DNA of 48,099 bases from Methanoregula sp. (GTDB lineage Archaea; Halobacteriota; Methanomicrobia; Methanomicrobiales; Methanospirillaceae): contig JAUYTV010000055.1 in NCBI GenBank assembly GCA_030694985.1, positions 1 through 48,099 on the forward strand, written 5' to 3'. Positions 20,544-36,821 of this stretch are shown in pieces. The position numbers were made by a program, and so were the translations under genes. Numbering within the stretch: position 1 is the stretch's first letter; the number at the start of each line of letters is the position of its first letter. Under the pieces are notes generated by a model. That model searched no databases. It was not told the origin of the DNA and saw nothing but the letters and a program-made list of their open reading frames with translations.

Positions 20544-21424
20544 ATGAAACAAGCACTTATCAGACGCCTTCATAAAAATTTCGAGGATTATGTCAAGGTA
20601 CAGGATGGTGTCGAGTTCTGGTTCGCCCGGGATTTACAAAACCTCCTTGGTTATACCGAGTGGAGAAATTTTTTGAAAGTTATCGAAAAAGCCCGTGAAT
20701 CTTGCCAAAACTCAAATAATGCAATTTCAGACCATTTTGTTGACGTCAACAAAATGGTTCCTCTCGGTTCTGGTTCAATGCGAGAACTGGAAGATATCCT
20801 ACTCACCCGCTATGCCTGTTATCTTATCGCCCAGAACGGTGATCCCCGCAAGGAAGAGATTGCATTTGCCCAGAGTTATTTTGCGGTGCAGACACGTAAA
20901 CAGGAGATTATCGAAGATCACATTCTTCTTGCTGAACGGTTGAAAGCGAGAAAAAAACTGAAAGACTCAGAAAAAGAATTATCGCGGAATATTTACGAGC
21001 GGGGAGTTGATGAATCAGGTTTTGCCCGCATCCGGAGCAAAGGAGATATGGCTCTTTTTGGGGGCCATACTATCCACATGATAAAAAACACCTGGAAATT
21101 GCTGATAACCGACCACTCGCTGATTTCCTTCCGACCGTTACTATCACCGCTAAGAATCTCGCAACGGAGATAACGAACTTCAATGTGACCAAGGAAAATA
21201 TGCAGGGTGAAGACCCTATCACGGTCGAACATGTCCAGAATAATCAGGATATCCGCGATCTGCTCCTGAAGCGGGGAATCTGGCCTGAAACCCTCCCCCC
21301 GGAAGAAGATCTCATAAAACTTGAGCGCAGGGTAAAGTCACAGGAGAAGCAGATAGCTGGCCGGGCGGGAAAAATTACTCCAGCACAACGTGATACCCGG
21401 CAAGAGCCGGAAGAACAGCAATAA
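20544..21424 (+). pseudogene. dinD: dinD homologue (DNA-damage-inducible protein D) with a -1 frameshift
   Basis: Residues 1 to ~180 match DinD (WFARDLQNLLGYTEWRNFLKVIEKA, LTRYACYLIAQNGDPRK, FAVQTRKQE, FGGHT). After the six-A run at 21083-21088 the frame becomes unrelated and stops at 21173. The alternative frame from 21089 reads on as a DinD C-terminus (NRPLADFLPTVTITAKNLAT ... RGIWPETLPPEEDLIKLERR) to 21424. One extra A would restore a ~293 aa protein. It may be a real pseudogene, a slippage switch or a sequencing error. DinD is LexA-controlled in E. coli; its job here is unclear. Confidence 0.85.
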
Positions 21425-21530: not shown

Positions 21531-22139
21531 CGGGATAGTGGAGATAGGCTCGCCCGCTTTCCCGTTCTGCACCCAGAATTATTATAGGCAGACACCCTCT
21601 CCCGAACCCCGAAAACTGACCCTAAAAAAACCCAATACGGGCTAAATTCCATCTTACCTGAAATTTGCCGTCCAATTGTGGCTAAATATGACCTCAATTA
21701 TTCCCGCCGTTCTCTGACCCTGTATTCCGGGTCTGTTCCTGTGTTTTTCCGAATTATGACCTCCCGATTTGGGAAGTCCGGGGAAAAGTGGTACAACCGG
21801 ACTGGTAGCGGGCTCCGTTGTACCAGAATTACCTCTGGCATACCTATGACCTGTCAGGGTCTCCCGTGAGGGGGTTCTACGACGGAGATTTCCTTCGCAA
21901 ACGATGGGGCTGGAAGGGGATAAGAGACAAAACATCGTCAGGACGACCTTTGCCTGTCAAAATATACGGGGCGATCTTTTTCATACGGTATGGATTTTCC
22001 GGAAAAACCGGTTGTAGAAAAAAGTCCTTTGGAAATTTCCCGGTACATGCCTTCACGGAAAAATACGGCACGGGAAAAAGTTTGGATTTTAATCCGGGGA
22101 TATCCGGTTAAAAAAAAGTTTGTGGAACTTTTCCGGCTT
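21531..22139 (-). repeat. Repeat tract A, downstream of the first 123 aa gene
   Basis: About 600 bases recurring near-identically as tract C and partly as tract B. It includes perfect 9+9 inverted arms TGGTACAAC/GTTGTACCA (21789-21797, 21817-21825), a second stem CCAGA/TCTGG (21823-21838), and TTTTCCGGAAAA. Frames differ between copies through 1-base indels in A-runs, so most of it is not coding. The T-run after the 123 aa gene (22113-22120 complement) probably ends that transcript before the tract. Confidence 0.75.
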
Positions 22140-22511
22140 TCACCCGGCTGTCGTGCTGGCCGGCAGCGGCTTTCCCTCCCGGTCGATCTCGACAAGCCCG
22201 GTTGCCGTGACCAGAAAGAACCGCCAGGTCCCGTGTTTGGATCGCAGCCAGAGCTCGGCCGTGATGGCAGCGTCCCGGGCGATAATCCGCAGCTGGGTGA
22301 TCTCGTCTTTGAAATCATTGGCAATCTCCACGATCGCTGCGAGGATTTGCGGCGCGAACATGACCCGAACGAACGTGATTGGAAGCCTTGATACGATCGA
22401 GATGTCGAAGATGCGTTCCGGCCCGAGGCCCGACATCTGGACAACGCCGCGTACCTGTGCGATCGGCATTGCTTCAGCGAGCGCCCGGTGCGGACGCGGT
22501 CCCCGGCTCAT
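22140..22511 (-). CDS. Unknown 123 aa protein, copy 1 of the repeated cassette
   Basis: The product begins MSRGPRPHRALAEAMPIAQ and contains GLGPERIFDISIV, FAPQILAAIVEI, RIIARDAA and ELWLRSKHGTWRFFLVTATG. It differs from copy 2 at about 12 positions, mostly conservative (V/L, R/K, I/V, N/D, E/Q), which supports this frame as truly coding over the antisense frame. GGAG lies 9 bases before the ATG, and the ATG overlaps the stop of a 36-codon ORF (ATGA). No signal or membrane segment. I do not recognise the family; the E-x-W-x-R-x-K stretch is only suggestive of a nucleic-acid protein. Confidence 0.72.
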   Translation of the reverse strand: MSRGPRPHRALAEAMPIAQVRGVVQMSGLGPERIFDISIVSRLPITFVRVMFAPQILAAIVEIANDFKDEITQLRIIARDAAITAELWLRSKHGTWRFFLVTATGLVEIDREGKPLPASTTAG

Positions 22512-22618
22512 GCTGAACGCTCCGGAATTTTTATTCTTCCTGCTGTGCCTGAATCCGGAGCAAAGCGTTGTGCCGCGACTTTACCGGATACATGGTTGTT
22601 ACTGGATGTGTTTTTCAT
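22508..22618 (-). CDS. Micro-ORF (36 aa) coupled to 123 aa gene, copy 1
   Basis: A 36 aa frame (MKNTSSNNHVSGKVAAQRFA ... ERSA) with a strong AAGGAGGT ribosome site and an ATGA overlap with the 123 aa gene. The same architecture recurs in copy 2 with a shorter, partly similar peptide. It may be a leader that sets translation of the next gene, or a small partner protein. Confidence 0.6.
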   Translation of the reverse strand: MKNTSSNNHVSGKVAAQRFAPDSGTAGRIKIPERSA

Positions 22619-22646
22619 GGTTTTGGTTTACCTCCTTTTTTCTTGT

Positions 22647-22666
22647 TGTCGCGGGGCCCTTTGACA
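22647..22666 (-). promoter_or_regulatory. 20-bp conserved motif, copy 1
   Basis: TGTCAAAGGGCCCCGCGACA on the minus strand, 28 bases before the micro-ORF start; identical to the copy at 24338-24357, although the flanking sequence has diverged. It has TGTC/GACA ends around GGGCCC. It could be an operator or an RNA 5' element. Confidence 0.5.
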
Positions 22667-22880
22667 TATTCCCATTAGTTACTGGGAGTGATGTGCGTGT
22701 CTGAATAAATCCGGATTCGTAAAAATGCCAGGTTTTGCTCGCGATAGAGAGGAAACAGAGCGAAAATTATAGAGATTGCAATTTGCCAAAATGGGAACAG
22801 GCCGGCTCAGGAAACGTATGAGTTTTGTAAAATTCAATCATAAGCACCCGGACCGCCTTGCCCTTGCTGAGTTGGGGGCA

Positions 22881-23327
22881 TCGGGAGGGAGTGTGGAGAC
22901 AGGCTCGCTCGCTTTTACCGATCTGCATCTAGAATTATTATCATCGGACACCCTCTCCCGAATCCCGAAACCGGACCCCAAAAAAACCCAATACGGGCTA
23001 AATTCCATCTTGTCCTGACTTTTGCCGTCCAAATATGGCTAAATATGACCTCAATTATTCCCGTCGTTCTCTGACCCAGTATTCCGGGTCTGTTCCTGCG
23101 TTTTTCCGAATTATGACCTCCCAATTTGGGGGGTCCAGGGAAAAGTGGTACAACTGGCATCGTTACGGGCTCCGTTGTACCAGAATTACCTCTGGCATAC
23201 CTATGACCTGCCAGGGTCTCCCGGGATGGGGGTCTACGACGGAGATTTCCTTCGTGAACGAAGGGGTTGGAGGGGGAGAAGAGACGAAACATCATCGGGA
23301 CGACCTTTACCTGACCTCAAAACCCGC
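22881..23327 (-). repeat. Repeat tract B, truncated
   Basis: A partial copy of tract A that breaks off near 23312 and runs into tract C. It keeps the TGGTACAAC/GTTGTACCA arms (23146-23154, 23174-23182) with a different loop, and the CCAGA/TCTGG stem. No 123 aa gene is attached. It is the most diverged of the three copies. The stretch 22667-22880 shows no gene and should hold the promoter of cassette copy 1. Confidence 0.7.
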
Positions 23328-23846
23328 CCTGAAAAAACCCAATACGGGCCAAATTCCATTTTACCTGAAATTTGCCGTCCAATTGTGGCTAAATATGACC
23401 TCAATTATTCCCGCCGTTCTCTGGCCCTGTATTCCGGGTCTGTTCCTGCGTTTTTCCGAATTATGACCTCCCGATTTGGGAAGTCCGGGGAAAAGTGATA
23501 CAACCGGACTGGTAGCGGGCTCCGTTGTACCAGAATTACCTCCGGCATACCTATGACCTGTCAGGGTCTCCCGGGATGGAGGTCTACGACGGAGATTTCC
23601 TTCGTGAACAATGGGGCTGGAAGGGGAGAAGAGACAAAACATCGTCAGGACGACCTTTGCCTGTCAAAATATACGGGGCGATCTTTTTCATACGGTATGG
23701 ATTTTCCGGAAAAACCGGTCGTAAAAAAAAAGTCCTTTGGAAATTTCCTGGTACATACCTTCACGGAAAAATCCGGCACGGGAAAAAGTTTGGATTTTAA
23801 TCCGCGGATATCCGGTTAAAAAAAGTTCGTGGAACTTTTCCGGCGA
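23328..23846 (-). repeat. Repeat tract C, downstream of the second 123 aa gene
   Basis: A near-identical copy of tract A, starting at the CCCAATACGGG block. The hairpin arms are TGATACAAC (23496-23504) and GTTGTACCA (23524-23532); as minus-strand RNA the change is a G-U wobble. The second stem also changed to a wobble on that strand. Confidence 0.75.
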
Positions 23847-24218
23847 TCACGCAGCAGTCGGACCGACCGGAAGCGGCTTTCCCTGCCGGTCGATCTCGAC
23901 AAGCCCGGTTGCCGTGACCAGGAAGAACCGCCAGGTCCCGTGTTTGGATCGCAGCCAGAGCTCAGCCACAACGGCAGCGTCCCGGGCGATAATCCGCAGC
24001 TGGGTGATCTCGTCTTTGAAATCATCGGCAATCTCCACAATCGCCGCGAGGATCTGCGGCGCGAACATGACCCGGGCGAACGTGACTGGAAGCTTCGATA
24101 CAATCGAGATATCAAAGATGCGTTCCGGCCCGAGGCCCGACATCTGGACGACGCCGCGTAACTGTGCGATCGGCATTGCTTCAGCGAGTGCCCGGTGCGG
24201 ACGCGGTCCCCGGCTCAT
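23847..24218 (-). CDS. Unknown 123 aa protein, copy 2 of the repeated cassette
   Basis: Same length as copy 1 and about 90% identical (begins MSRGPRPHRALAEAMPIAQ; ends GKPLPVGPTAA). GGGGTG precedes the ATG, which overlaps the stop of a 31-codon ORF (ATGA). The open frame upstream of this ATG is in a different frame from the micro-ORF and has no ribosome site, so I start here. Function unknown. Confidence 0.72.
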   Translation of the reverse strand: MSRGPRPHRALAEAMPIAQLRGVVQMSGLGPERIFDISIVSKLPVTFARVMFAPQILAAIVEIADDFKDEITQLRIIARDAAVVAELWLRSKHGTWRFFLVTATGLVEIDRQGKPLPVGPTAA

Positions 24219-24310
24219 GAGCGACACCCCGGGATTTTTCCTGCACCGGAACCCGGGCGATGGTTGATCGTCAGTCCCGGTATGGTTTTGTGATTTAATG
24301 AATTTCTCAT
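24215..24310 (-). CDS. Micro-ORF (31 aa) coupled to 123 aa gene, copy 2
   Basis: A 31 aa frame (MRNSLNHKTIPGLTINHR ...) preceded by AAGGAAG and ending in an ATGA overlap with the 123 aa gene. Its C-terminal half (RPGSGAGKIPGCRS) resembles that of copy 1 (DSGTAGRIKIPERS), while the N-terminal half has diverged. Confidence 0.6.
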   Translation of the reverse strand: MRNSLNHKTIPGLTINHRPGSGAGKIPGCRS

Positions 24311-24337
24311 ACGGTGTTACTTCCTTTTTTTTGCTTG

Positions 24338-24357
24338 TGTCGCGGGGCCCTTTGACA
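24338..24357 (-). promoter_or_regulatory. 20-bp conserved motif, copy 2
   Basis: Identical to the motif at 22647-22666, again about 28 bases before the micro-ORF start. Conservation of motif, ribosome site and overlap in both copies marks the functional boundary of the cassette. Confidence 0.5.
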
Positions 24358-24774
24358 AAGTAGACTCTGATGGACTGCGCGGATGAATCTTGCTGAAGCA
24401 AACCGGAATGTAAGGGGAATTTTGGATGAAGTGGGGGTCATACAATTCAGGTCCCAGGGTGGCGCTACCGCCCAGCCTTTGCTTGAGTATGGTGGGGCGT
24501 TGTCGTGATATTTGAGGGGGTTTGCCCGGCATTTTGAAATCAATTAGGGGAGCTGGGATGCCGGCAAGGGGTGGGATGTCTCCCTGTGCTGAGGGAGGGG
24601 GGATGAATTTAACTGATATGATGCGAATAACAAAAAAACATAACCATTCTTTAGAATAACAATAGGAACAATCAATAATTGTGAAATGTGTGATAAAAAG
24701 ATAGTAATTTTACAAACGCTCCTAAAAATTGGTTTTTAGATTAATCCTGGAATAACAAAATCGAGAAGAAAAAT
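24358..24774. other. Intergenic gap upstream of the hsd operon
   Basis: The left part is G-rich and featureless and must contain the promoter of cassette copy 2. From about 24610 it turns A+T-rich and carries the hsdM promoter. CTAAAAA-TTGG-TTTTTAG at 24722-24739 is a perfect 7-bp stem, 35 bases before the hsdM ATG. Confidence 0.45.
24722..24739 (+). promoter_or_regulatory. Perfect inverted repeat before hsdM
   Basis: CTAAAAATTGGTTTTTAG has 7-base arms around TTGG. In this position it may be an operator controlling the restriction genes or a terminator for upstream transcripts. Confidence 0.35.
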
Positions 24775-26229
24775 ATGTTTGAACAAACATTTCGAAACAT
24801 GGACGATATCCTTTGGAAGGATTCCGGGGCTGATAGTGAATTAGATTATGTCGGGCAGACATCTTGGGTATTATTCTTACGATACTTAGACGAGCTGGAG
24901 AAAGTTAAGGCAGATGAAGCCGGATTGAAAGGAAAGGAATACCAGTTCATTCTTGCTGAAGAATTCCGGTGGTCAAACTGGGCAATGCCCAAAGGTGCTG
25001 ATGGAAAGCTTGACCACCAAAAGGCTATGACAGGTCCAGACCTTGTCGATTTTGTAGATAAGAAATTATTCCCTTATCTTGGAGAATTTAAAAAGAAAGC
25101 GGAAAATGCCCGGACTATCGAATATAAAATTGGCGAGATCTTCTCTGAACTCAAAAATAAAATTCAAAGCGGATACAATCTGCGTGGAATATTGGATTAT
25201 GCCGATGATCTGAAATTCAGGTCAACAAAAGACAAACATGAGTTAAGCAGTCTGTATGAGACAAGGATCAAAAATATGGGCAATGCCGGGCGTAATGGCG
25301 GACAATATTATACACCAAGACCTTTAATCCGGGCAATGATTGAGGTAACAGATCCCAAGATCGATGAGAAAATATATGATGGTGCAGCAGGCTCATGCGG
25401 TTTTCTGTGCGAATCCTATGATTACATAATTAATCGGATGGACAAGACCACCGAAAATTTAAGAATTTTACAGGATGAGACATTTTATGGGAAGGAGAAG
25501 AAAAATCTCGCCTATATTATCGGAATTATGAATATGATTCTTCACGGAATCGAAGCTCCGAATCTTATTCACATCAATACTCTTACCGAAAATATTCGGG
25601 ACATTCAGGAAAAGGACAGATATCAGGTTATACTGACCAATCCCCCTTTCGGCGGTAAGGAACGAAAAGAAGTACAGCAGAACTTTGACATCAAGACCGG
25701 CGAAACCGCGTTCCTCTTCCTTCAGCATTTCATAAAATCCTTAAAGGCTAATGGAAGGGCAGCTATCGTCATTAAAAACACCTTCCTGAGTAATACTGAT
25801 AATGCCTCAGTTAGCCTCAGGAAACATCTTTTAGCAAGCTGTGACCTGCATACGATCCTCGATATGCCGGGTGGAACATTCCAGGGTGCGGGTGTGAAGA
25901 CGGTGGTTCTATTCTTCAAAAAAGGCGAGTCAACCAAAAAAATTTGGTACTACCAGCTTGATCCGGGTAGGAATATGGGTAAAACCAATCCCTTGAACGA
26001 TGATGACTTGAAGGAATTTGTCAAACTCCAGCCCATTAAACCCGAGACAGAAAAGTCATGGAATTTCAGGGTCGCGGATATCAACGAAGACACATTCGAC
26101 CTTAGTGTAAAGAATCCTAACAAGCCAGACGATGCACCTCTCCGGAGTCCTAAAGAGATTCTAAAAGAAATGGAAGCCCTTGATGCCCAGACGAATGCGA
26201 TTTTGAAGTCAATCAAGGAATTGTTATGA
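24775..26229 (+). CDS. hsdM: Type I restriction-modification methyltransferase subunit HsdM
   Basis: A 484 aa N6-adenine methyltransferase. The N-terminal helical domain (to ~150) precedes GQYYTPRPLIRAM, SAM motif I (DGAAGSCGF, D202) and catalytic motif IV NPPFGG (N289). It methylates the sites chosen by HsdS and forms part of the restriction complex. Its stop overlaps the hsdS start (ATGA). Confidence 0.96.
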   Translation: MFEQTFRNMDDILWKDSGADSELDYVGQTSWVLFLRYLDELEKVKADEAGLKGKEYQFILAEEFRWSNWAMPKGADGKLDHQKAMTGPDLVDFVDKKLFPYLGEFKKKAENARTIEYKIGEIFSELKNKIQSGYNLRGILDYADDLKFRSTKDKHELSSLYETRIKNMGNAGRNGGQYYTPRPLIRAMIEVTDPKIDEKIYDGAAGSCGFLCESYDYIINRMDKTTENLRILQDETFYGKEKKNLAYIIGIMNMILHGIEAPNLIHINTLTENIRDIQEKDRYQVILTNPPFGGKERKEVQQNFDIKTGETAFLFLQHFIKSLKANGRAAIVIKNTFLSNTDNASVSLRKHLLASCDLHTILDMPGGTFQGAGVKTVVLFFKKGESTKKIWYYQLDPGRNMGKTNPLNDDDLKEFVKLQPIKPETEKSWNFRVADINEDTFDLSVKNPNKPDDAPLRSPKEILKEMEALDAQTNAILKSIKELL

Positions 26230-27416
26230 ATGAGGCATCAGTCTTTTCATCCAAATATCCGCTAAAAAAAATTACTGATGTTTGTATGGTTATAGCGGGG
26301 CAATCACCTGAATCTAAGTATTATAATTCCGATGGTAAGGGATTGCCTTTTTATCAAGGAAAAAAAGAATTCACAAAAAAATTTCTCGGGAAACCAACAA
26401 TTTGGACTTCAAAAATTACAAAGGAAGCTCAAGAGGACGATATTTTAATGTCCGTAAGAGCTCCTGTTGGTCCAGTAAATTTTGCAACCCAAAAAATTTG
26501 TATTGGACGTGGTCTTGCTGCTATAAGATCTTCTGAAAAAGTTAATAAAAATTATTTATTTTACTTTCTTTTAATGGTCGAATCTGAAATTGAAGGAAAT
26601 GATGGAGCGATATTTAATTCCATTAATAAAGATCAAATTGGTGAAATTGAAATCCCAATCCCACCACTCTCCGAACAAAATCATATTGTCGCCATTCTTG
26701 ATGACGCATTTACAGCGTTCGATCAGGGCAAAGCCAACATCGAAAAGAACATTGAAAATGCCAGAGAGATTTTTCAGAGCAGGCTCATGGAGATTTTTTC
26801 CCGGAATGACAGGGGCTGGGAAGAAACGAAACTTGGAGAAGTATGTTACAAAATTACCGATGGAAAACATGGTGATTGTAAAAACGAACAAAATTCAGAA
26901 TATTATTTTTTAAGTGCAAAAGATGTTTTTAACGATACTTTAAATTATGAAAAGGCAAGACAAATTTCAAAAAAAGATTTTGAAGAAACCCATCGAAGAA
27001 CTGACTTGAAACCCGGGGATGTTTTAGTTACCAATAGTGGAACAATTGGAAGGATGGCGCTGGCTCCAGATGATGAAAAAACATATAGGACCATTTTTCA
27101 AAAAAGTGTAGCAATTATCAAGCCAAAAAATGATATTTTGAATAGCGACTTTTGTAAATATATTTTAGAGTCAGATTTAGATAAATTAGTAAATATTTCT
27201 GCCGGTACTGCTCAGCAAAATTTACTAATTGGTGATTTAAAAACACACACAATATATTTACCTTCGATAGAAGAACAGAGGATGATAGTAAATCAATTAG
27301 ATGAATTTAAAAAACAGTCTCTGAAGTTATGTAGACAATATCAAACAAAATTTGATTTAATCGAAGAACTCAAGAAATCTCTTCTTCAGAAAGCTTTTGC
27401 TGGAGAACTGACATAG
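26226..27416 (+). CDS. hsdS: Type I specificity subunit HsdS
   Basis: A 396 aa protein with two target-recognition domains (starting near residues 10 and 200), each followed by a conserved helix (PPLSEQNHIVAILDDAFTAFDQGKANIEK; PSIEEQRMIVNQLDEFKKQS). The two domains define a bipartite DNA target. The TRDs are conspicuously A+T-rich, typical of exchanged modules. The C-terminus LLQKAFAGELT is the usual ending. Confidence 0.96.
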   Translation: MNEASVFSSKYPLKKITDVCMVIAGQSPESKYYNSDGKGLPFYQGKKEFTKKFLGKPTIWTSKITKEAQEDDILMSVRAPVGPVNFATQKICIGRGLAAIRSSEKVNKNYLFYFLLMVESEIEGNDGAIFNSINKDQIGEIEIPIPPLSEQNHIVAILDDAFTAFDQGKANIEKNIENAREIFQSRLMEIFSRNDRGWEETKLGEVCYKITDGKHGDCKNEQNSEYYFLSAKDVFNDTLNYEKARQISKKDFEETHRRTDLKPGDVLVTNSGTIGRMALAPDDEKTYRTIFQKSVAIIKPKNDILNSDFCKYILESDLDKLVNISAGTAQQNLLIGDLKTHTIYLPSIEEQRMIVNQLDEFKKQSLKLCRQYQTKFDLIEELKKSLLQKAFAGELT

Positions 27417-27431
27417 GTAGATTACTGCCCC

Positions 27432-29801
27432 ATGACCCTGAACGAACCGGAGACCGAATTAGAGTATATCGATCCTGCACTAAAAGAAGCAGGTTGGGGT
27501 GTTGTCGAAGGAAGTCGCATCCGAAAGCAATTCCCGATAACAAATGGCCGACTCATTGGTCAGGGAAAAAGGGACAAGCCCCTTAAAGCCGATTATGTGT
27601 TACAATACAAAAACTGCAATCTGGCGGTCATCGAGGCCAAAGCCGAAGATAAATATTATACTGATGGCGTCGGGCAGGCCAAAGATTACGCACAACGATT
27701 GCGCATCCGGTATACCTATTCTACCAATGGCAAAGAGATCTATCACATCGACATGGACGAGGGAAAAGAAGGTGACATTACCAACTATCCCACTCCAGAT
27801 GAATTGTGGGAGATTACCTTCCCGAAACCGGTAACCGAGAAAGCGATCGAGATCGCCGATTGGAAAGAACGTTTCTCATACATTCCGTTTGAGGACCGGG
27901 GCGGAACATGGCAGCCGAGATATTATCAGGAAAATGCCATCAATAAAACACTTGAAGCAGTCGCGGATGGAAAAGAGAGAATCCTTCTCACTCTGGCCAC
28001 CGGAACCGGAAAAACCGCCATCTCTTTTCAGATTGCCTGGAAATTATTTCATTCCCGTTGGAATTTGAACAAAGACGGTATGAGAAGACCAAGAATACTC
28101 TTTCTCACAGACCGTAATTTTCTTGCGGATCAGGCATTCAATTCATACAATGCCTTTGAAGAGGATGCACTGGTTCGTATCTCTCCTGCCGACATCAGGA
28201 AGAAGGGGAAAGTCCCAAAAAATGGCAGTGTCTTCTTCACCATATTTCAAACCTTCATGAGCGGTCCGGATAACTCCCCCTACTTTGGCGAGTATCCCAA
28301 AGACTTCTTCGACTTCATCATCATTGACGAATGTCACAGGGGTGGTGCAAACGATGAAAGCACATGGAGATCAATCTTGGAATATTTCAGCCCCGCTGTT
28401 CAACTGGGTCTCACAGCTACGCCGAAAAGGGATGTAAATGTTGATACCTACGCATACTTCGGTGAACCGGTCTATATTTATTCATTAAAAGAGGGCGTCA
28501 ACGATGGGTTCCTCACACCTTTCCGTGTAAAAGAAATCTCGACAACCGGAGACGAATATACATTCACCTCAGATGATACAATCATTGAAGGTGAAATCGA
28601 AAAAGATCGTAAGTACACTCTGGAAGATCAGAACAGGATTATCCAGATAATGGATGTTGAAAGATATCGTGTACATATCTTCATGGATATGATAAACCAA
28701 AGTCAGAAGACATTAGTCTTTTGTGCAAACCAGATCCATGCTGCTGCTATTCGTGATTTAATCAACCAGTATGCCCGAAACAAAAATCCAAACTACTGCC
28801 ACAGGGTTACGGCAGATGATGGCGAGATCGGTGAACAACATCTGAGAGACTTCCAGGACAATGAAAAGAGTATCCCCACCGTACTGACAACATCCCAAAA
28901 ACTGAGCACTGGCGTTGATGCCCCTGAAATTAGAAATATCGTGCTGATGCGTCCGATTAATTCAATGGTGGAATTCAAACAGATTATAGGCAGAGGAACA
29001 AGACTCTTTGATGGAAAAGACTTCTTCACCATCTATGACTTTGTCAAAGCTCACGACCACTTCAATGATGATGAATGGGACGGCGAACCATTGGATCCCG
29101 AACAACCAATTTACAAACCAGAAACAATTGACGATAAATCCGGCATCAAAGATCTGAATTCCGTTTGTCTGGTATGCGGGGAATACCCGTGCACCTGTGA
29201 AGGCCCAAAAAGGAAGATGATCCGGGTAAAACTCTCTGACAATAAGATTCGGGAACTGGACTCAATGGTCAAAACAACATTCTGGAATCCCACAGGAACA
29301 CCCATATCATCAGAAGAATTCGTGAGGCAGCTGTTTGGAGACATACCTGCATTCTTTAATGACGAAAACGAACTGAGAAAGTTATGGAGCAATCCGAATA
29401 CCCGAAAGGAACTCCTCAATAAACTAAGCGAGAAAGGCTATTCAATAAATCAATTGGAAGAATTAAAGAAACTTGTTCATGGCGAAGACAGTGATCTTTA
29501 CGATGTCCTTGCATATGTTGCATATCACAGAAATATGGTTCCAAGATTCTCCCGTGCCGAAAAAGCAAAAAGTTGCCTAGATCCATACAACGATAAACAG
29601 CGGGATTTTTTGAATTTCGTTCTTGAACAGTATGTAAAAGAAGGTGATGGAGAACTGGACGTTGACAAACTCCCTAGTCTGCTGACACTGAAATATAAAG
29701 CTGTGACTGATGGAATAAACGCACTTGGCGATGTCAGTACAATTCGAAACGCTTTCATTGATTTTCAGAAATGCCTCTACCAACCAATAGCAGTTTACTG
29801 A
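27432..29801 (+). CDS. hsdR: Type I restriction endonuclease subunit HsdR
   Basis: A 789 aa motor-nuclease: N-terminal PD-(D/E)xK nuclease (KADYVLQYKNCNLAVIEAK), SF2 helicase with Walker A ATGTGKT (189-195), DECH at 299-302 and GLTATP, helicase C-terminal GRGTRLFDG, and an EcoEI-type C-terminal domain that docks on HsdM/S. It cuts unmodified DNA after translocation. 15 bases separate it from hsdS; the operon appears intact. Confidence 0.96.
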   Translation: MTLNEPETELEYIDPALKEAGWGVVEGSRIRKQFPITNGRLIGQGKRDKPLKADYVLQYKNCNLAVIEAKAEDKYYTDGVGQAKDYAQRLRIRYTYSTNGKEIYHIDMDEGKEGDITNYPTPDELWEITFPKPVTEKAIEIADWKERFSYIPFEDRGGTWQPRYYQENAINKTLEAVADGKERILLTLATGTGKTAISFQIAWKLFHSRWNLNKDGMRRPRILFLTDRNFLADQAFNSYNAFEEDALVRISPADIRKKGKVPKNGSVFFTIFQTFMSGPDNSPYFGEYPKDFFDFIIIDECHRGGANDESTWRSILEYFSPAVQLGLTATPKRDVNVDTYAYFGEPVYIYSLKEGVNDGFLTPFRVKEISTTGDEYTFTSDDTIIEGEIEKDRKYTLEDQNRIIQIMDVERYRVHIFMDMINQSQKTLVFCANQIHAAAIRDLINQYARNKNPNYCHRVTADDGEIGEQHLRDFQDNEKSIPTVLTTSQKLSTGVDAPEIRNIVLMRPINSMVEFKQIIGRGTRLFDGKDFFTIYDFVKAHDHFNDDEWDGEPLDPEQPIYKPETIDDKSGIKDLNSVCLVCGEYPCTCEGPKRKMIRVKLSDNKIRELDSMVKTTFWNPTGTPISSEEFVRQLFGDIPAFFNDENELRKLWSNPNTRKELLNKLSEKGYSINQLEELKKLVHGEDSDLYDVLAYVAYHRNMVPRFSRAEKAKSCLDPYNDKQRDFLNFVLEQYVKEGDGELDVDKLPSLLTLKYKAVTDGINALGDVSTIRNAFIDFQKCLYQPIAVY

Positions 29802-30706: not shown

Positions 30707-32290
30707 ATGACACTAATGAAGGATGATCAGATTTCTTCAAACAAAATAATTGATGCTTCAATATCCTTCGCGCGGATGCATTGCAAAGAATTTACTCCGC
30801 AAGCTCGCAAAAATAAAGGCCAATTTTTCACTCCGAAAAAAGTCGCGACATTCATGGCGGATCTTTTTGAGATCAGAAACGAAAAATTGCAAATATTAGA
30901 TCCAGGTGCGGGAACAGGAATTCTCCTTTCCGCAGTCTGTGATAGAATTTTCGAACAGGACATTTCATATAATATCCAAATTGATGCTTACGAAAATGAT
31001 GAGAGTCTTATTCCATTTTTAAAAAATACTCTAGAACTCAGTAATAAAAAATTATCAAAAAAAGGTCACAAGTTATCATTTAAAATTTTCAATTCAAATT
31101 TTATTCTCGAAGATAAATTTTCAACTAATCCGAATCAACCTGAAATAACGAAAAAAAATCAGTATGATCTGGTTATTTCGAACCCCCCCTATTACAAAAT
31201 AGACATAAACTCACCAGAATCTCGAAAATTAAAAGATTTTGTCTTTGGACAGCCGAACATTTATTCATTTTTTATGATTTCTGCAATGCAATTATTGAAA
31301 GACGAGGGCCAATTTATTTTTATTATTCCCAGAAGTTTTTGTTCAGGCCTCTATTTTGGGAAAATTAGAGATTGGTTTGTTAAAAATACGCAAATAGAGT
31401 TTATCCATTGTTTTGAGTCACGTCTGAAAATTTTTGAAGATAATGTGACCCAAGAGACGGTCATTTTCAAGGGAAACAAAACAAAACCTGACAAAAAACA
31501 ATCCGTAAAGATCAGTATTTCTGAGGATAAATCTTTTACAAATTCCTTTAGTTTTATGGCGAAAAACAAAATGGTTTTTGAGAGGAAAAGTACCGAATCA
31601 TTTATTCGCATCCCTCATTGTGAAAAGGATCTAAAAATAATTCAAGAAATTGATACTTGGGATAACTCTTTGAAAAGTCTAGGAATGGAAATATCTACAG
31701 GAAAAGTTGTAGATTTTCGCACGAAAGAAAATCTAATATACAATTTTGAAGGAAAAAATGGGGTTCCATTACTTTGGATGCATAACTTGAATGATGGATC
31801 AATAGATTGGCCTTCAAACAAATATTCAAAACCTCAAGGAATTTTGTTGAACGAACAAACAAAACATCAGGTAATCCCGGTCGATAATTATATTTTATTA
31901 AAACGGTTCACTTCAAAAAACCAAAAAAGAAGACTCTATGCTACACCATTGTTAAAGTCAAATTTTCCAGAGTACTCATCAATAGGCCTTGAAAATCATT
32001 TGAACTATATACATGGTGTGAAAAAGCCAATTTCAATCTTCGATTTATTCGGCATTACCGCCCTCTTTAACACTTCATTCTATGATATATATTATCGTTC
32101 TTTTAGTGGAAATACCCAGGTTAATGCAAATGAAATACGAAATATTTCTCTTCCGACAAGTGATAAAATAACAGCAATCGGGAAACTCGTAGAAAATAAA
32201 AAATACAAGTCAAATAAGGATCTAGATATCCATATAGGCAAAATTCTGAATTTTAATGAAGCACTTTTAGAAATAGTACAGAATTACTAA
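30707..32290 (+). CDS. Solitary N6-adenine DNA methyltransferase, Eco57I-like
   Basis: A 527 aa enzyme: GQFFTPKKVATFMADLF (motif X), motif I LDPGAGTGI (64-72), motif IV NPPY (159-162), and a C-terminal half with the pattern of TaqI/Eco57I target-recognition domains. It methylates adenine in double-stranded DNA. No type II nuclease is next to it, so it may be orphan or partner the minus-strand operon it faces. M4 is an alternative start. Very A+T-rich coding. Confidence 0.88.
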   Translation: MTLMKDDQISSNKIIDASISFARMHCKEFTPQARKNKGQFFTPKKVATFMADLFEIRNEKLQILDPGAGTGILLSAVCDRIFEQDISYNIQIDAYENDESLIPFLKNTLELSNKKLSKKGHKLSFKIFNSNFILEDKFSTNPNQPEITKKNQYDLVISNPPYYKIDINSPESRKLKDFVFGQPNIYSFFMISAMQLLKDEGQFIFIIPRSFCSGLYFGKIRDWFVKNTQIEFIHCFESRLKIFEDNVTQETVIFKGNKTKPDKKQSVKISISEDKSFTNSFSFMAKNKMVFERKSTESFIRIPHCEKDLKIIQEIDTWDNSLKSLGMEISTGKVVDFRTKENLIYNFEGKNGVPLLWMHNLNDGSIDWPSNKYSKPQGILLNEQTKHQVIPVDNYILLKRFTSKNQKRRLYATPLLKSNFPEYSSIGLENHLNYIHGVKKPISIFDLFGITALFNTSFYDIYYRSFSGNTQVNANEIRNISLPTSDKITAIGKLVENKKYKSNKDLDIHIGKILNFNEALLEIVQNY

Positions 32291-33009
32291 CAAATAGAAC
32301 ACTGATGACCAAGGTATGTATTGTCATCGTTCTCTAACCAAGATTGGCACGCCTCGAAATAGTTCTCCTGGAATAACTTTTGACTAAATCGGATAATATC
32401 GATCCATTCTCGTTTCTGTCGAAAATCATGAGTTTCGTTCGGGAAATAATTCACTAAAATATATTCTAATAATAGAACGATATCCATTGGGGGATGGGGG
32501 AATCTAGGTTCATGAATTGTTGTAGGAATCCAACAATGTTCATGCACATCTTGTTTTCCCCCGAAGTGCAAATGGCAGAGGGGCTCTGGGAGTGTAACCC
32601 CGGATTCTTTTTGTTCGAGATGAAAACGTATCATTACACGTTTCCATTCCCCTTCATTCACCAGATTCTTAATTCTAAATGAATCGAATGTTTCTCGATA
32701 ACAATACTGTGGTTTATCTGACCATAACAAAATATTTACACCATATTGGGCGATTTTTAGTTTATCGCCTAGTTCTTCAGCTTCAAATTTGAATAATAAT
32801 TCAACTTCAGAAAGAACATCATGTGATTCTGTATTAAAAATTAAGGGTTTCTCTAACAGATCCATTTTCCAAATTTTTTTCCCGCCAATAATTTGCATTG
32901 TACATACGGGAGGGATATTCTCTCGCGAATCGTCTCGAACCTTATTACGAATCTCTTTTTGAATGAAAAGCCATCGAAGTTTTTTATTATACTCTGATAA
33001 AAGAGTCAT
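32287..33009 (-). CDS. Unknown 240 aa protein, third gene of the GHKL/receiver operon
   Basis: A soluble protein with no family I know. Notable are a His/Cys-rich stretch (CHLHFGGKQDVHEHCW, about residues 145-160), HPPMDIVLLLEYILVNYFP, and a C-terminal CSIC. It lies 5 bases after the receiver gene, so it is co-transcribed. Its TAG overlaps the TAA of the methyltransferase tail to tail. The His/Cys cluster could bind metal. Role inferred from context: effector or target of the signalling pair. Confidence 0.65.
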   Translation of the reverse strand: MTLLSEYNKKLRWLFIQKEIRNKVRDDSRENIPPVCTMQIIGGKKIWKMDLLEKPLIFNTESHDVLSEVELLFKFEAEELGDKLKIAQYGVNILLWSDKPQYCYRETFDSFRIKNLVNEGEWKRVMIRFHLEQKESGVTLPEPLCHLHFGGKQDVHEHCWIPTTIHEPRFPHPPMDIVLLLEYILVNYFPNETHDFRQKREWIDIIRFSQKLFQENYFEACQSWLENDDNTYLGHQCSIC

Positions 33010-33014
33010 GAGAA

Positions 33015-34109
33015 TCAGGGCTTTAAATTTCGTTTCTTGATAATATCTCTCGCAACCTCATCAAATAAATCAAAATTCACGTCATCTCGTGTTTTAATTG
33101 ATCTAAAGGATACCCTTGCCTCATCCATCACTTCAGGCCGAGTATCAACATGATAGTGAAGTGAATACTTCAACATGGCAGGTCTCTGGGACAGGTAACA
33201 TACCGTCTCTGCCGGGCTATCGTCTTTGAATTCACAGACCGAAGGTGCTAACTTTTGTAAATGTGTTCTATTCCAATATTTGATGAAACCTTTACGAAGA
33301 GGCAAATTTTTTTCGGTTTCATCCATATTTTGTGCTGCAACTTCGATGAGTTTGGTTTTCCACCATCGATCGTTCTCATCAGAAAAAACGCCATAATATC
33401 TTGCTGGATTGAAAAATGTTTGAACCTCAGGTAACTGAAATGAATCCAATGTTATTCCTAGGTAGGTAGCTGCAAAAACTGGTTCATAGACGATTCCGGG
33501 AAATTTCAATAATGTTTTCCGTATCCATGTCGCCGCTTCGAATGCGGTCCATGTCTTTCTTTTTGCTTGTTCTATTGGATATGACATTTTTAAAACATCA
33601 TAACTTGATTCAGGGGCAGAAATTAATGCAATTAAATTATCCCAGTTTTTTGGTTCTTTATCTCGAAGTTTTTTATAACCCAATGCAATACTTATTAAAT
33701 ATCTAATTAAGTTAGAATGATTCGGAGGAATCAAATCCTCTTTGTATTTTGTATCATCAATGCATGCCAAAATCGCTTCATTATGAGGGAAGTCCGCTCT
33801 TTGTTCGTATGGTTTTCTTGTAAAAAGAACAATTGGAACATGAGAGAATTTTTGTCTGAATAAATTTGATAATGTCACTCCATTCATTCCAAGAACATCA
33901 CCCTCTGAATCAACATGTGAATAATCAAAATCTGCAAGAATAAGGTCAGGAGATTTATTATCAAGAATATTCGGGGTTTTTTTAACCTTAGTCCCGATAA
34001 TTTTTTCGACAATCAAGTTATAATGAGATGAACTGTTTTCTTCGATGAGAGAACCAAATCGGTCAAGATCGGGTTGCTCATCATCGAAATAGAGAATATT
34101 AAGGTCCAT
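33015..34109 (-). CDS. Receiver-domain protein with a large unknown C-terminal domain
   Basis: A 364 aa protein. Residues 1-130 look like a response-regulator receiver: acidic pair D9-D10 (LYFDDE), phosphoacceptor candidate D60 or D62 (LILADFD), T97 in VPIVLFT, and a Lys at 121/123. Residues ~140-364 are not a DNA-binding domain I recognise and include conserved-looking aromatic patches (WTAFEAATWIRK, FFNPARYYGVF, KYWNRTHLQ). It overlaps the upstream ATPase/kinase gene by 11 bases. Likely partner of that protein; the C-terminal part may be the effector. Confidence 0.72.
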   Translation of the reverse strand: MDLNILYFDDEQPDLDRFGSLIEENSSSHYNLIVEKIIGTKVKKTPNILDNKSPDLILADFDYSHVDSEGDVLGMNGVTLSNLFRQKFSHVPIVLFTRKPYEQRADFPHNEAILACIDDTKYKEDLIPPNHSNLIRYLISIALGYKKLRDKEPKNWDNLIALISAPESSYDVLKMSYPIEQAKRKTWTAFEAATWIRKTLLKFPGIVYEPVFAATYLGITLDSFQLPEVQTFFNPARYYGVFSDENDRWWKTKLIEVAAQNMDETEKNLPLRKGFIKYWNRTHLQKLAPSVCEFKDDSPAETVCYLSQRPAMLKYSLHYHVDTRPEVMDEARVSFRSIKTRDDVNFDLFDEVARDIIKKRNLKP

Positions 34110-36657
34110 TTTTCACCAGCGGAATTTTTATCTGAATGCATGTATTCCAACCAGATGGAGGTGGAATAAAGTTTACTTCCCCTTCATACGCTTCTACAAT
34201 ATCGCGTACGATCTTTAATCCCAAACCTGTCCCTGCACCATATGTCAGATCAGGTTCACCATAACTATTGAACGGTTTAAAGACAGTCTCCCATAATTCT
34301 TTATCAAGACCTTTTCCAGAATCTAAACATCTTAGATAAAGAATATCATTTTTCTCAAATCCTTGAATCTCAATTCTCCGGTCTTGTTGTCCGGTGACTG
34401 CCTTAATCGCGTTCGACATTAAGTTATGAATTATTGCGATAAACTCCGAGCGATACATCAAGGGAGTTCGAATCGTTTCTGGAATTGCATTATTAAATGA
34501 GATCCCACGTTTTTCAATTTGCATTTTAAATGGCGACTCAATATCATCAACAATGGGTTTGATTATCCATTTTCTCATTTCAGACTGACTTTCTTTACCT
34601 ATTGAAAGTCCTAAGAATCGCTGAAAATCCTGGATCATCTGGATTCGATCGTTAAAAGTCTTCAGGTCTTTTGAATATTTTTGTTGTTCTTGAGGAGGTG
34701 CTTTATTGATAATTTCCGTTAGTCGGTGCATCAATAATTTCATGTCCTCAATAAGTGCTTGGATCTCATGAGTGAAAATAAAAATTAGTGTTCCGGTAGA
34801 TGCAAGGACACGTAACCGGGAAAATTCTTGCCTTAATCTTTCTTTTTCTCGTTCCAGTTCTGATTTTTGAGTTCTGATTTTCTCTTCTTCTGCTTTTTTA
34901 GAAGTTTCAATAGATGTTCTTGCTGCAGCTTCCGCAATTTCACGTGTTTCATCGGCCTTTTTTATTGCATCTATTTCACGGGTTCGGCTTTGCTCTTCTT
35001 TTTGACGTAATTCATTTTCTTGTTTAATTTTTTCTAGCTCCAATTGACGAGCTTGCTCAGCTTTTACCAATTCTGGTTCGGCCGGTTTTTTTCTTGCAAT
35101 TGCTTCAGCTTCCCTCCTTAAAAGTTCAGCATGCCTTCTTTCTTCTTCTGCATTCCTGCGTTCTTGTTCGGCTTTTTGTCGTTCAAGTATGGCATTTTGG
35201 GCATCTTCTTGAGCTTTTTTCTTTTGTTTTTCGACCAGAGTGGCTGCTTCAATTGCTTTTCTTTTTTCTTCTTCAGCCTTTTTTTGACGTTCAATGTCTT
35301 CTTGTTTGATTTTATCTAATTCTAACTTTTTTTGATTTTCTTTTAACTTTTGATCCTCTTCGATTTCAGATGCGTAAATTACAGTCGCATGATCAATACC
35401 TAATCTAACAAATTTTCGAAGTTCTTTAAATGCTGAACTTTCACTGTCTAAACGATCCCGATTTATTAAAATTTCGAGGTTGGGATTTTTTTCGTGATTA
35501 AAGGTGACATAACCAAAGAGCGCCGCATTTCTAAATAATGCCAATCCAGGCCTTAATTCCGGATTATAAAAATTTACTAATTCTTCATCGACTGCAGCAC
35601 GAGATCTTGCACGATCATAGTCAACACAAAGCCAATCATTTCCCTTTTCCCCATATCCAAAAACCCTAAATTTATCGGCATAAACTTTGACGCCCCCGCG
35701 CTCACGTCCAATTACCTGTGATTTAGAAGAAGTCCATTCATTTTTAAAAAGATCAGTTCGGTAAGAGAAAATAAAAATCTTAAATTTTGCAGATCGTAAT
35801 TGTTTAAAGGGGATTTCTCGTTGAAGGGGTTTGGAAAATTTATGAATAATTCGTTGCTGAATTGAACAATTATATGTTGCCAAACCGTTTTCATCGACTT
35901 CGCCAGTCAGTATTGCCCAGGCATTTTCAAAAAAAGCTTTATCCAATGTATCTGGGCCTATAGAAAATTCTTTACTTATAAATTCATAATGAAAACCAGG
36001 ATCAAAAGTTGCATCTATTTTTTTCGCAATCTTTTTTTCTTGCTTCTCTTCTTCCAAAAAAATTAAAGGAGTAAATAATTCGCTAATCTCATTTTTCAAT
36101 CGAACAATATTTCGTTCGGTCCATGGTTCTGTTGTATTCTCTAAAATCAGAGTTGTTCCCGTTGAAACAGATGAATCGACTTGTTTTAGATTATATTTTG
36201 TTGGAATTTTATCAACATCGGATCCTGGAACAAATTTTGGCCAATCGAATTTTGCTGATAATTCTGTTTTAATTCCATTTTCACCTTCAGAGATTGTACT
36301 TAGTAATAGTTTTTTTGCGAGTTTTCTACATGCGAAACGACCGATCCCTTTTTGTCCTGATTTCGTCCGTTTATATTTCGGAGAAATGGGTTTTTCTTCT
36401 GAAAAGATTGTAGCAATCCTCATCCAGCCTCTTTTAAAGGTCTCCTCGTTCATTCCAATTCCATTATCTTGAATGGTTATACTTCCACCAGGATTCTTAA
36501 TTTTATTCAGAGTAATTATTGCTTTTGTAGCATCAGCGTCGAAGGAATTTTTTATTAATTCTGCCAGTGCAATTGCTCGATTTGTAACAAGTTTTTCTCC
36601 AATTTCATAGAGGAGTCGAGAATCGACTTCAAAAAATACTTCGTTATCTTGACCCAT
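34099..36657 (-). CDS. Double-GHKL protein: Hsp90/MutL-type ATPase plus histidine-kinase module
   Basis: An 852 aa protein. N-terminal Bergerat-fold ATPase of Hsp90/MutL/MORC type: N-box ELIKNSFDADA (N37), DNGIGM (64-69), GQKGIGRFA (101-109). Next a middle domain, then a long K/E/Q/R coiled coil (~430-615), then FTHEIQALIEDM with candidate phospho-His 630, and a second, kinase-type GHKL domain (HNLMSNAIKAV, DSGKGL, GAGTGLGLKIV). No membrane segment, so a cytosolic sensor. The ATG at 36657 follows AAGGGG; a start 34 codons upstream is less likely. It heads a three-gene operon in the defence island. Confidence 0.85.
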   Translation of the reverse strand: MGQDNEVFFEVDSRLLYEIGEKLVTNRAIALAELIKNSFDADATKAIITLNKIKNPGGSITIQDNGIGMNEETFKRGWMRIATIFSEEKPISPKYKRTKSGQKGIGRFACRKLAKKLLLSTISEGENGIKTELSAKFDWPKFVPGSDVDKIPTKYNLKQVDSSVSTGTTLILENTTEPWTERNIVRLKNEISELFTPLIFLEEEKQEKKIAKKIDATFDPGFHYEFISKEFSIGPDTLDKAFFENAWAILTGEVDENGLATYNCSIQQRIIHKFSKPLQREIPFKQLRSAKFKIFIFSYRTDLFKNEWTSSKSQVIGRERGGVKVYADKFRVFGYGEKGNDWLCVDYDRARSRAAVDEELVNFYNPELRPGLALFRNAALFGYVTFNHEKNPNLEILINRDRLDSESSAFKELRKFVRLGIDHATVIYASEIEEDQKLKENQKKLELDKIKQEDIERQKKAEEEKRKAIEAATLVEKQKKKAQEDAQNAILERQKAEQERRNAEEERRHAELLRREAEAIARKKPAEPELVKAEQARQLELEKIKQENELRQKEEQSRTREIDAIKKADETREIAEAAARTSIETSKKAEEEKIRTQKSELEREKERLRQEFSRLRVLASTGTLIFIFTHEIQALIEDMKLLMHRLTEIINKAPPQEQQKYSKDLKTFNDRIQMIQDFQRFLGLSIGKESQSEMRKWIIKPIVDDIESPFKMQIEKRGISFNNAIPETIRTPLMYRSEFIAIIHNLMSNAIKAVTGQQDRRIEIQGFEKNDILYLRCLDSGKGLDKELWETVFKPFNSYGEPDLTYGAGTGLGLKIVRDIVEAYEGEVNFIPPPSGWNTCIQIKIPLVKNGP

Positions 36658-36821
36658 TATATCCCCTTTTTTCAGATCTCTGACAATTGATCTATTAGTG
36701 AAAGAGTTAATAATCATATTCGTATTTTGATTTGAGACTAAAAATGTGAAAGATTCCAAATTCTTTTAACTCTTTTTCAAACTCAATTTTTTAACCAAGA
36801 CTTTTCTGTCTCTCCCAGACC

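Follow-up and report, generated by a model that had tools for sequence, protein, structure and literature searches.

Genes whose cognate repeats are dispersed through the genome have been described mainly in bacteria, and they encode HUH-type tyrosine transposases. In the RAYT/REP systems, the protein and its repeat co-evolve, and the abundance of the repeat tracks the gene (PMC2817692). The cassettes described here, which were found in a genome of the archaeon Methanoregula sp., resemble these systems in their logic: the gene lies beside its cognate repeat, the two co-diverge, several types occur within one genus, and the number of elements in a genome tracks the number of close family genes (Spearman 0.70, uncorrected for genome completeness or phylogeny). 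However, RAYT is an IS200/IS605-type tyrosine transposase, whereas a PD-(D/E)XK fold like that of Hjc is predicted for the archaeal protein. REPs occur as two inverted copies flanking the gene and in tens to hundreds per genome, whereas the archaeal element is a multi-box sequence of ~140 nt, usually present as one direct copy downstream of the gene and with up to 19 matches per genome. Because the protein is unrelated and the repeats are arranged differently, the system is not a member of the RAYT/REP group.

Other described systems share individual features with the cassettes. The archaeal resolvase Hjc (PF01870; 1gef of P. furiosus) shares the predicted fold, and the matching strand of both contains a W-R-F motif, but the 123-aa family encoded by the cassettes has neither a match to that sequence family nor the acid of the ExK motif, and it is multicopy, fast-diverging and linked to an element. 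Some solo copies of the element are similar to MITEs in their length, terminal inverted repeats (TIRs) and target duplications (TSDs), whereas the elements in the window and the type-2 solos lack such TIRs, and the element is, in addition, linked to a protein-coding gene. In type III toxin–antitoxin modules (ToxIN type), a small protein gene likewise adjoins a repeated, mostly non-coding tract; here, in contrast, the tract follows the gene, shows no conserved RNA fold and is mostly gene-free.

The window, i.e. the whole stretch of DNA that was analysed, comprises 48,099 nucleotides (contig JAUYTV010000055.1 of assembly GCA_030694985.1). Two tandem cassettes are located on its minus strand at 21.5–24.6 kb, and each contains, in order, a 20-bp dyad, a ribosome site, a micro-ORF, an ATGA overlap, a 123-aa gene and a T-run (Table 1). 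All of the cassette parts listed in the initial annotation were found in both copies, including the identical 20-bp motif. The conserved tract is also present, but in three copies (21612-21911, 22969-23268 and 23319-23618) rather than the two that had been claimed, and the ends originally given for the cassettes were too short, as the 5' homology to the sister genome G012 reaches 24600. G012 (93% identical) has the same left-hand gene but only one cassette next to it, suggesting that the pair in the window probably arose by local duplication. A sharp mobile end at 24600 was considered and dropped: G012 and G001 share sequence past this position, and the break therefore belongs to the window. 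Comparisons at the window locus and at one solo locus gave no clear orthologous empty site.

Table 1. Coordinates of the cassette and element features in the window.
Feature	Position	Strand	Basis
20-bp palindromic motif, copy 1	24338..24357	-	TGTCAAAGGGCCCCGCGACA; genus-wide search
Micro-ORF, 31 aa, copy 1; probable coupling leader/relic of upstream gene A	24215..24310	-	ATGA overlap
Gene for 123-aa protein of predicted Hjc fold, copy 1	23847..24218	-	Fold via copy-2 model; dN/dS 0.25
Multi-box element a, 3' of gene copy 1	23385..23523	-	Model R1, E 6.5e-30
Multi-box element copy b, between cassettes	23036..23173	-	Model R1, E 3.1e-31
20-bp palindromic motif, copy 2	22647..22666	-	Same letters as copy 1
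Micro-ORF, 36 aa, copy 2	22508..22618	-	ATGA overlap
Gene for 123-aa protein of predicted Hjc fold, copy 2	22140..22511	-	AlphaFold pLDDT 86, pTM 0.82
Multi-box element c, 3' of gene copy 2	21678..21816	-	Model R1, E 3.1e-30
Palindromic box, element c	21790..21824	-	Arms GGTACAAC (21817-21824) and GTTGTACC (21790-21797); read from sequence
Box a, element c, GAGGTCATAATTC	21751..21763	-	Sequence; co-changes with box c
Box c, element c, GAGGTCATATTTAGC	21681..21695	-	Sequence; co-changes with box a

A type I restriction system (HsdM, HsdS and HsdR; 24775-29801) directly adjoins the cassettes, and another paralog in the same genome (L079) is likewise close to an hsdM-like gene. A possible defence island at 30707-36759 contains an Eco57I-type methylase, an unassigned 364-aa gene and an 886-aa HATPase protein. 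A Bro-N domain protein (20544-21173) also adjoins the cassettes.

The two 123-aa proteins of the window are 91% identical, and the selection that had been read from their conservative differences was borne out. The gene is under purifying selection, with an NG86 dN of 0.049 and dS of 0.20 for the window pair, i.e. a ratio of 0.25 rather than one near 1; the median dN/dS over 78 close family pairs is 0.23. Further copies were found elsewhere, homologous genes being present in 35 of the 36 Methanoregula genomes at 1–11 members per genome. The genome to which the window belongs (G000) contains five paralogs by sequence search and six by profile. One weak gene match was obtained in 24 genomes from other families of the same order (taxon names taken from the GTDB scan), and a profile search across the phylum (393 genomes) identified members in 27, all but one of which are from the same taxonomic family. 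The gene family is restricted almost entirely to one archaeal family, and the occurrence of gene and tract across Methanoregula is far above chance. Searches of Pfam, NCBIfam, PHROGs, PADLOC and PDB sequences found no relatives of the 123-aa family, and none of the papers searched was relevant to Methanoregula repeats or resolvases. A virus origin was rejected: protein relatives were not found in viral contigs, and the sole DNA pattern match, in an AT-rich contig, was a chance match.

Both micro-ORFs of the window overlap their 123-aa gene by ATGA, and in most of the 43 family members listed, the start codon overlaps the stop codon of an upstream ORF. This ORF is a micro-ORF in the window-type members, while elsewhere it encodes either B, a protein of 89 aa, or A, which is longer and coiled-coil-like and has a weak HSBP1 match below the Pfam cut-off; the gene order A-B-C is present at one locus. 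Because the start of the micro-ORF (MRE..) resembles that of gene A, the micro-ORF is probably a coupling leader, i.e. a relic of a longer upstream gene that has been kept for coupling, and this role appears to fit it better than that of a peptide partner. At L356 (2223-2701, minus strand), genes A (..CSLMERQDRMN..) and B (..SVKRTHWHHYN..) form an ATGA-overlapping operon with the Hjc-fold gene. A genus-wide search for the 20-bp dyad gave 28 matches, compared with one for the reversed control. The dyad is not specific to the cassettes, being found ahead of an A-type operon and of a second family (167 aa, MADFVQ...) as well; it is likely to be a common promoter-proximal control. This second family is multi-copy, occurring behind the dyad at L345, L347 and L350-L356 (e.g. 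L356:620-1123, minus strand), and its matches in Pfam and PHROGs were all insignificant.

An AlphaFold model of window copy 2, based on 43 members, had a pLDDT of 86 and a pTM of 0.82. Its best structural matches were archaeal Hjc resolvases (2wiw by Foldseek, E 3.4e-4; 1gef by VIA, Z 10.9, rmsd 3.0 over 104 aa), and a model of a divergent paralog from the same genome showed the same fold, again with Hjc as the best matches. The 123-aa protein is therefore predicted to have a PD-(D/E)XK fold like that of the archaeal Hjc resolvase. At the sequence level, no PF01870 match was obtained for the window proteins up to E 10 or for the 43 members up to E 1, and hhalign to a single Hjc sequence aligned the WRF stretch only (probability 1.3%). 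The catalytic residues of PD-(D/E)XK nucleases, including Hjc, form a D...ExK signature, which was not found in the 82 members examined. R21 and E86 are invariant (82/82), D36 is present in 64 and K51 in 27. Position 49, which corresponds to the Glu of ExK as judged from strand order rather than superposed coordinates, is R in 63 members, K in 8 and S in 6, and never Glu among the common residues. The absence of this acid makes catalysis doubtful, and its replacement, mostly by Arg, makes a binding protein, or an enzyme whose active site has been rearranged, more likely than a standard nuclease. PF01870 found no match in G000 and weak single-copy matches in several relatives, so the host Hjc resolvase of G000 may be divergent or may have been missed.

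A palindromic box and short boxes that are repeated make up the element, which in the window lies about 330 nt past the stop codon of the 123-aa gene on the same strand. A 139-position model of the tract core matched 29 of the 36 Methanoregula genomes and none of the 24 genomes from the other families of the order. Among 114 copies studied, a sample partly picked for solo copies, 74 lack a family gene in the surrounding 700 bp; where a gene is nearby, the element follows it on the same strand in 32 cases and precedes it on that strand in 7, and the two are on opposite strands in 1. When counted from the genes, 43 of 82 have a same-strand downstream element within 900 bp, compared with 11 on the opposite strand, in a count that leans to finding more since the profile was retrained on downstream matches. 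In the subfamily to which the window genes belong, a majority of genes have such an element behind them on their own strand. Usually one same-strand downstream copy is present per gene, and paired copies are almost always in direct orientation. Several divergent genes are followed by a diverged element of the same build, as judged by eye, and for some long or divergent family members no element was detectable. Broken copies of the 123-aa gene were found upstream of elements at L045, L049 and L052, which suggests that cassettes decay to solo elements.

Two main types of element differ simultaneously at several boxes (GAGGTCAT versus GAGG(C/T)AAT and GCGGAA versus GCGGTAAT), and the outer arms of the palindromic box are not both kept in type 2. 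Protein and element distances are correlated (Mantel r 0.83 for 30 pairs; best of 2000 permutations, 0.33). Boxes a and c co-change across 96 copies, and their similarity within an element is 0.858, compared with a mean of 0.793 across elements (maximum of 5000 shuffles, 0.825). Three genes that were found later, outside model building, have the downstream element type expected from the protein subfamily, i.e. type 1 for L365, which is from another genus, and type 2 for L366 and L370. The mean number of elements is 7.0 in genomes with a close gene and 1.6 in those without, and the nearest neighbour of an element is in the same genome in 24 of 101 cases (7 expected), which points to proliferation. 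As gene and element are linked, common inheritance with no contact between them could also account for their co-divergence.

The explanation that we favour, with a confidence that falls a little short of even, is that these are tandem repeat-associated gene cassettes whose Hjc-fold protein binds its own dispersed type of element. Each cassette would probably be transcribed into one mRNA, on which the short coupling ORF would hand ribosomes to the 123-aa gene via the ATGA overlap. The protein is most likely sequence-specific for its own element type, probably as DNA, and the elements would be its dispersed sites. Cassettes and elements would then spread and decay as semi-selfish units, and one subset of elements clearly moves in the manner of a MITE, bounded by terminal repeats of its own and presumably driven by an unrelated transposase.

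It is rather unlikely that the pairing operates instead at the RNA level, with the element acting as RNA in the 3' part of the transcript, binding the protein and thereby exerting feedback on the cassette, while solo copies put other transcripts under the same control. The usual placement of the element behind the gene, on the gene's own strand, would suit such a mechanism, as would the local hairpin predicted in many type-1 copies and the finding that elements are flanked about twice as frequently by convergent as by divergent gene pairs (26 vs 13). However, the structured nature that had been ascribed to the tract was not supported. RNAalifold on 18 and on 100 nonredundant copies, local hairpin pair counts and a flank-duplex test revealed no conserved fold: the 100 copies have no consensus fold on either strand, their strongest co-varying columns are not complementary, the flank helices are no stronger than mismatched pairs (p 0.40), and no Rfam match was obtained.

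A sharp-ended subset of solo copies was identified in G031, G005 and G016. At L157, L158, L133 and L120 (in G025, G016 and G031), the element is bounded by the TIR TGCTCTGTAGAAAT and by perfect 8-bp TSDs, with scores exceeding every mismatched control. These MITE-like solos are ~360 bp long (one is 358 bp), with TIRs of ~14 bp and AT-rich target duplications. The same terminal repeat is also found on elements without the core, and the subset thus looks like MITEs carrying the core; because G016, one of the genomes in which it occurs, lacks a close gene, the subset does not depend on the 123-aa protein to move. The mobility proposed in the initial annotation holds for this subset of the tract family, whereas the window copies have no such ends: neither the window cassette nor the type-2 solos gave terminal repeats above the mismatched control. 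An autonomous transposase with the same TIR was not found in the stretches of G033 and G025 that were read. A MITE family (TIR TGCTCTGTAGAAATC) in which the core was not detected is present at L320, L329, L337, L311, L322 and other G016 and G033 loci; G016 has 54 TIR matches. An autonomous element was not found. In the genome of the window, a contig end (L166:1640-2552) contains tandem repeat units of ~720 bp around a solo element.

These TIRs and 8-bp TSDs, the TIR-bearing elements that lack a core, and the direct repeats that flank cores and cassettes could all be accommodated by passive linkage, in which a duplicating gene carries a neutral 3' repeat that is spread by MITE transposition and recombination, with nothing binding to it. 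We consider this unlikely, because certain positions in the boxes do not vary among diverse copies and the boxes change in concert, and because the element has been kept downstream of genes down to 50% identity and in another genus.

It is very doubtful that the cassettes constitute a recombination-site system, in which a retargeted Hjc-like resolvase would act at palindromic-box junctions or on paired direct-repeat elements and so control duplication and loss of the cassette. The fold, the direct-repeat elements that bracket the gene at several loci, the tandem arrays, and the duplication in the window versus the single copy in G012 are consistent with such a role, but the catalytic acid of ExK is absent from all members, the family falls outside PF01870, and no direct sign of element-specific recombination was found. 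A toxin–antitoxin or defence module, in which either the tract RNA or the micro-peptide would serve as antitoxin, could draw on the nuclease-like fold and on the proximity of the small coupled ORFs to a type I restriction system, but it is highly improbable, since no toxin, antitoxin or defence family (including PADLOC) was matched, the sequence of the micro-ORF is not conserved and longer genes take its place in other members, the catalytic acid is absent, many solo elements are gene-free, and the type III layout, with a tandem-repeat antitoxin RNA before the toxin gene, was not found (the core precedes the gene in 7 cases and follows it in 32).

Binding of the protein to its own dispersed element type remains the reading that we prefer. 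In a broader form, which we put forward more tentatively, the cassettes may represent an archaeal repeat system in which an Hjc-like protein without the usual catalytic acid recognises its cognate elements and maintains, moves or recombines them, the matched pairs diversifying so that several types exist in one genus. If this is true, a junction-resolvase scaffold can become the partner of a genomic repeat, as in this lineage-restricted archaeal family with an Hjc-type fold, and many natural protein–site pairs would be available for testing how sequence specificity evolves.
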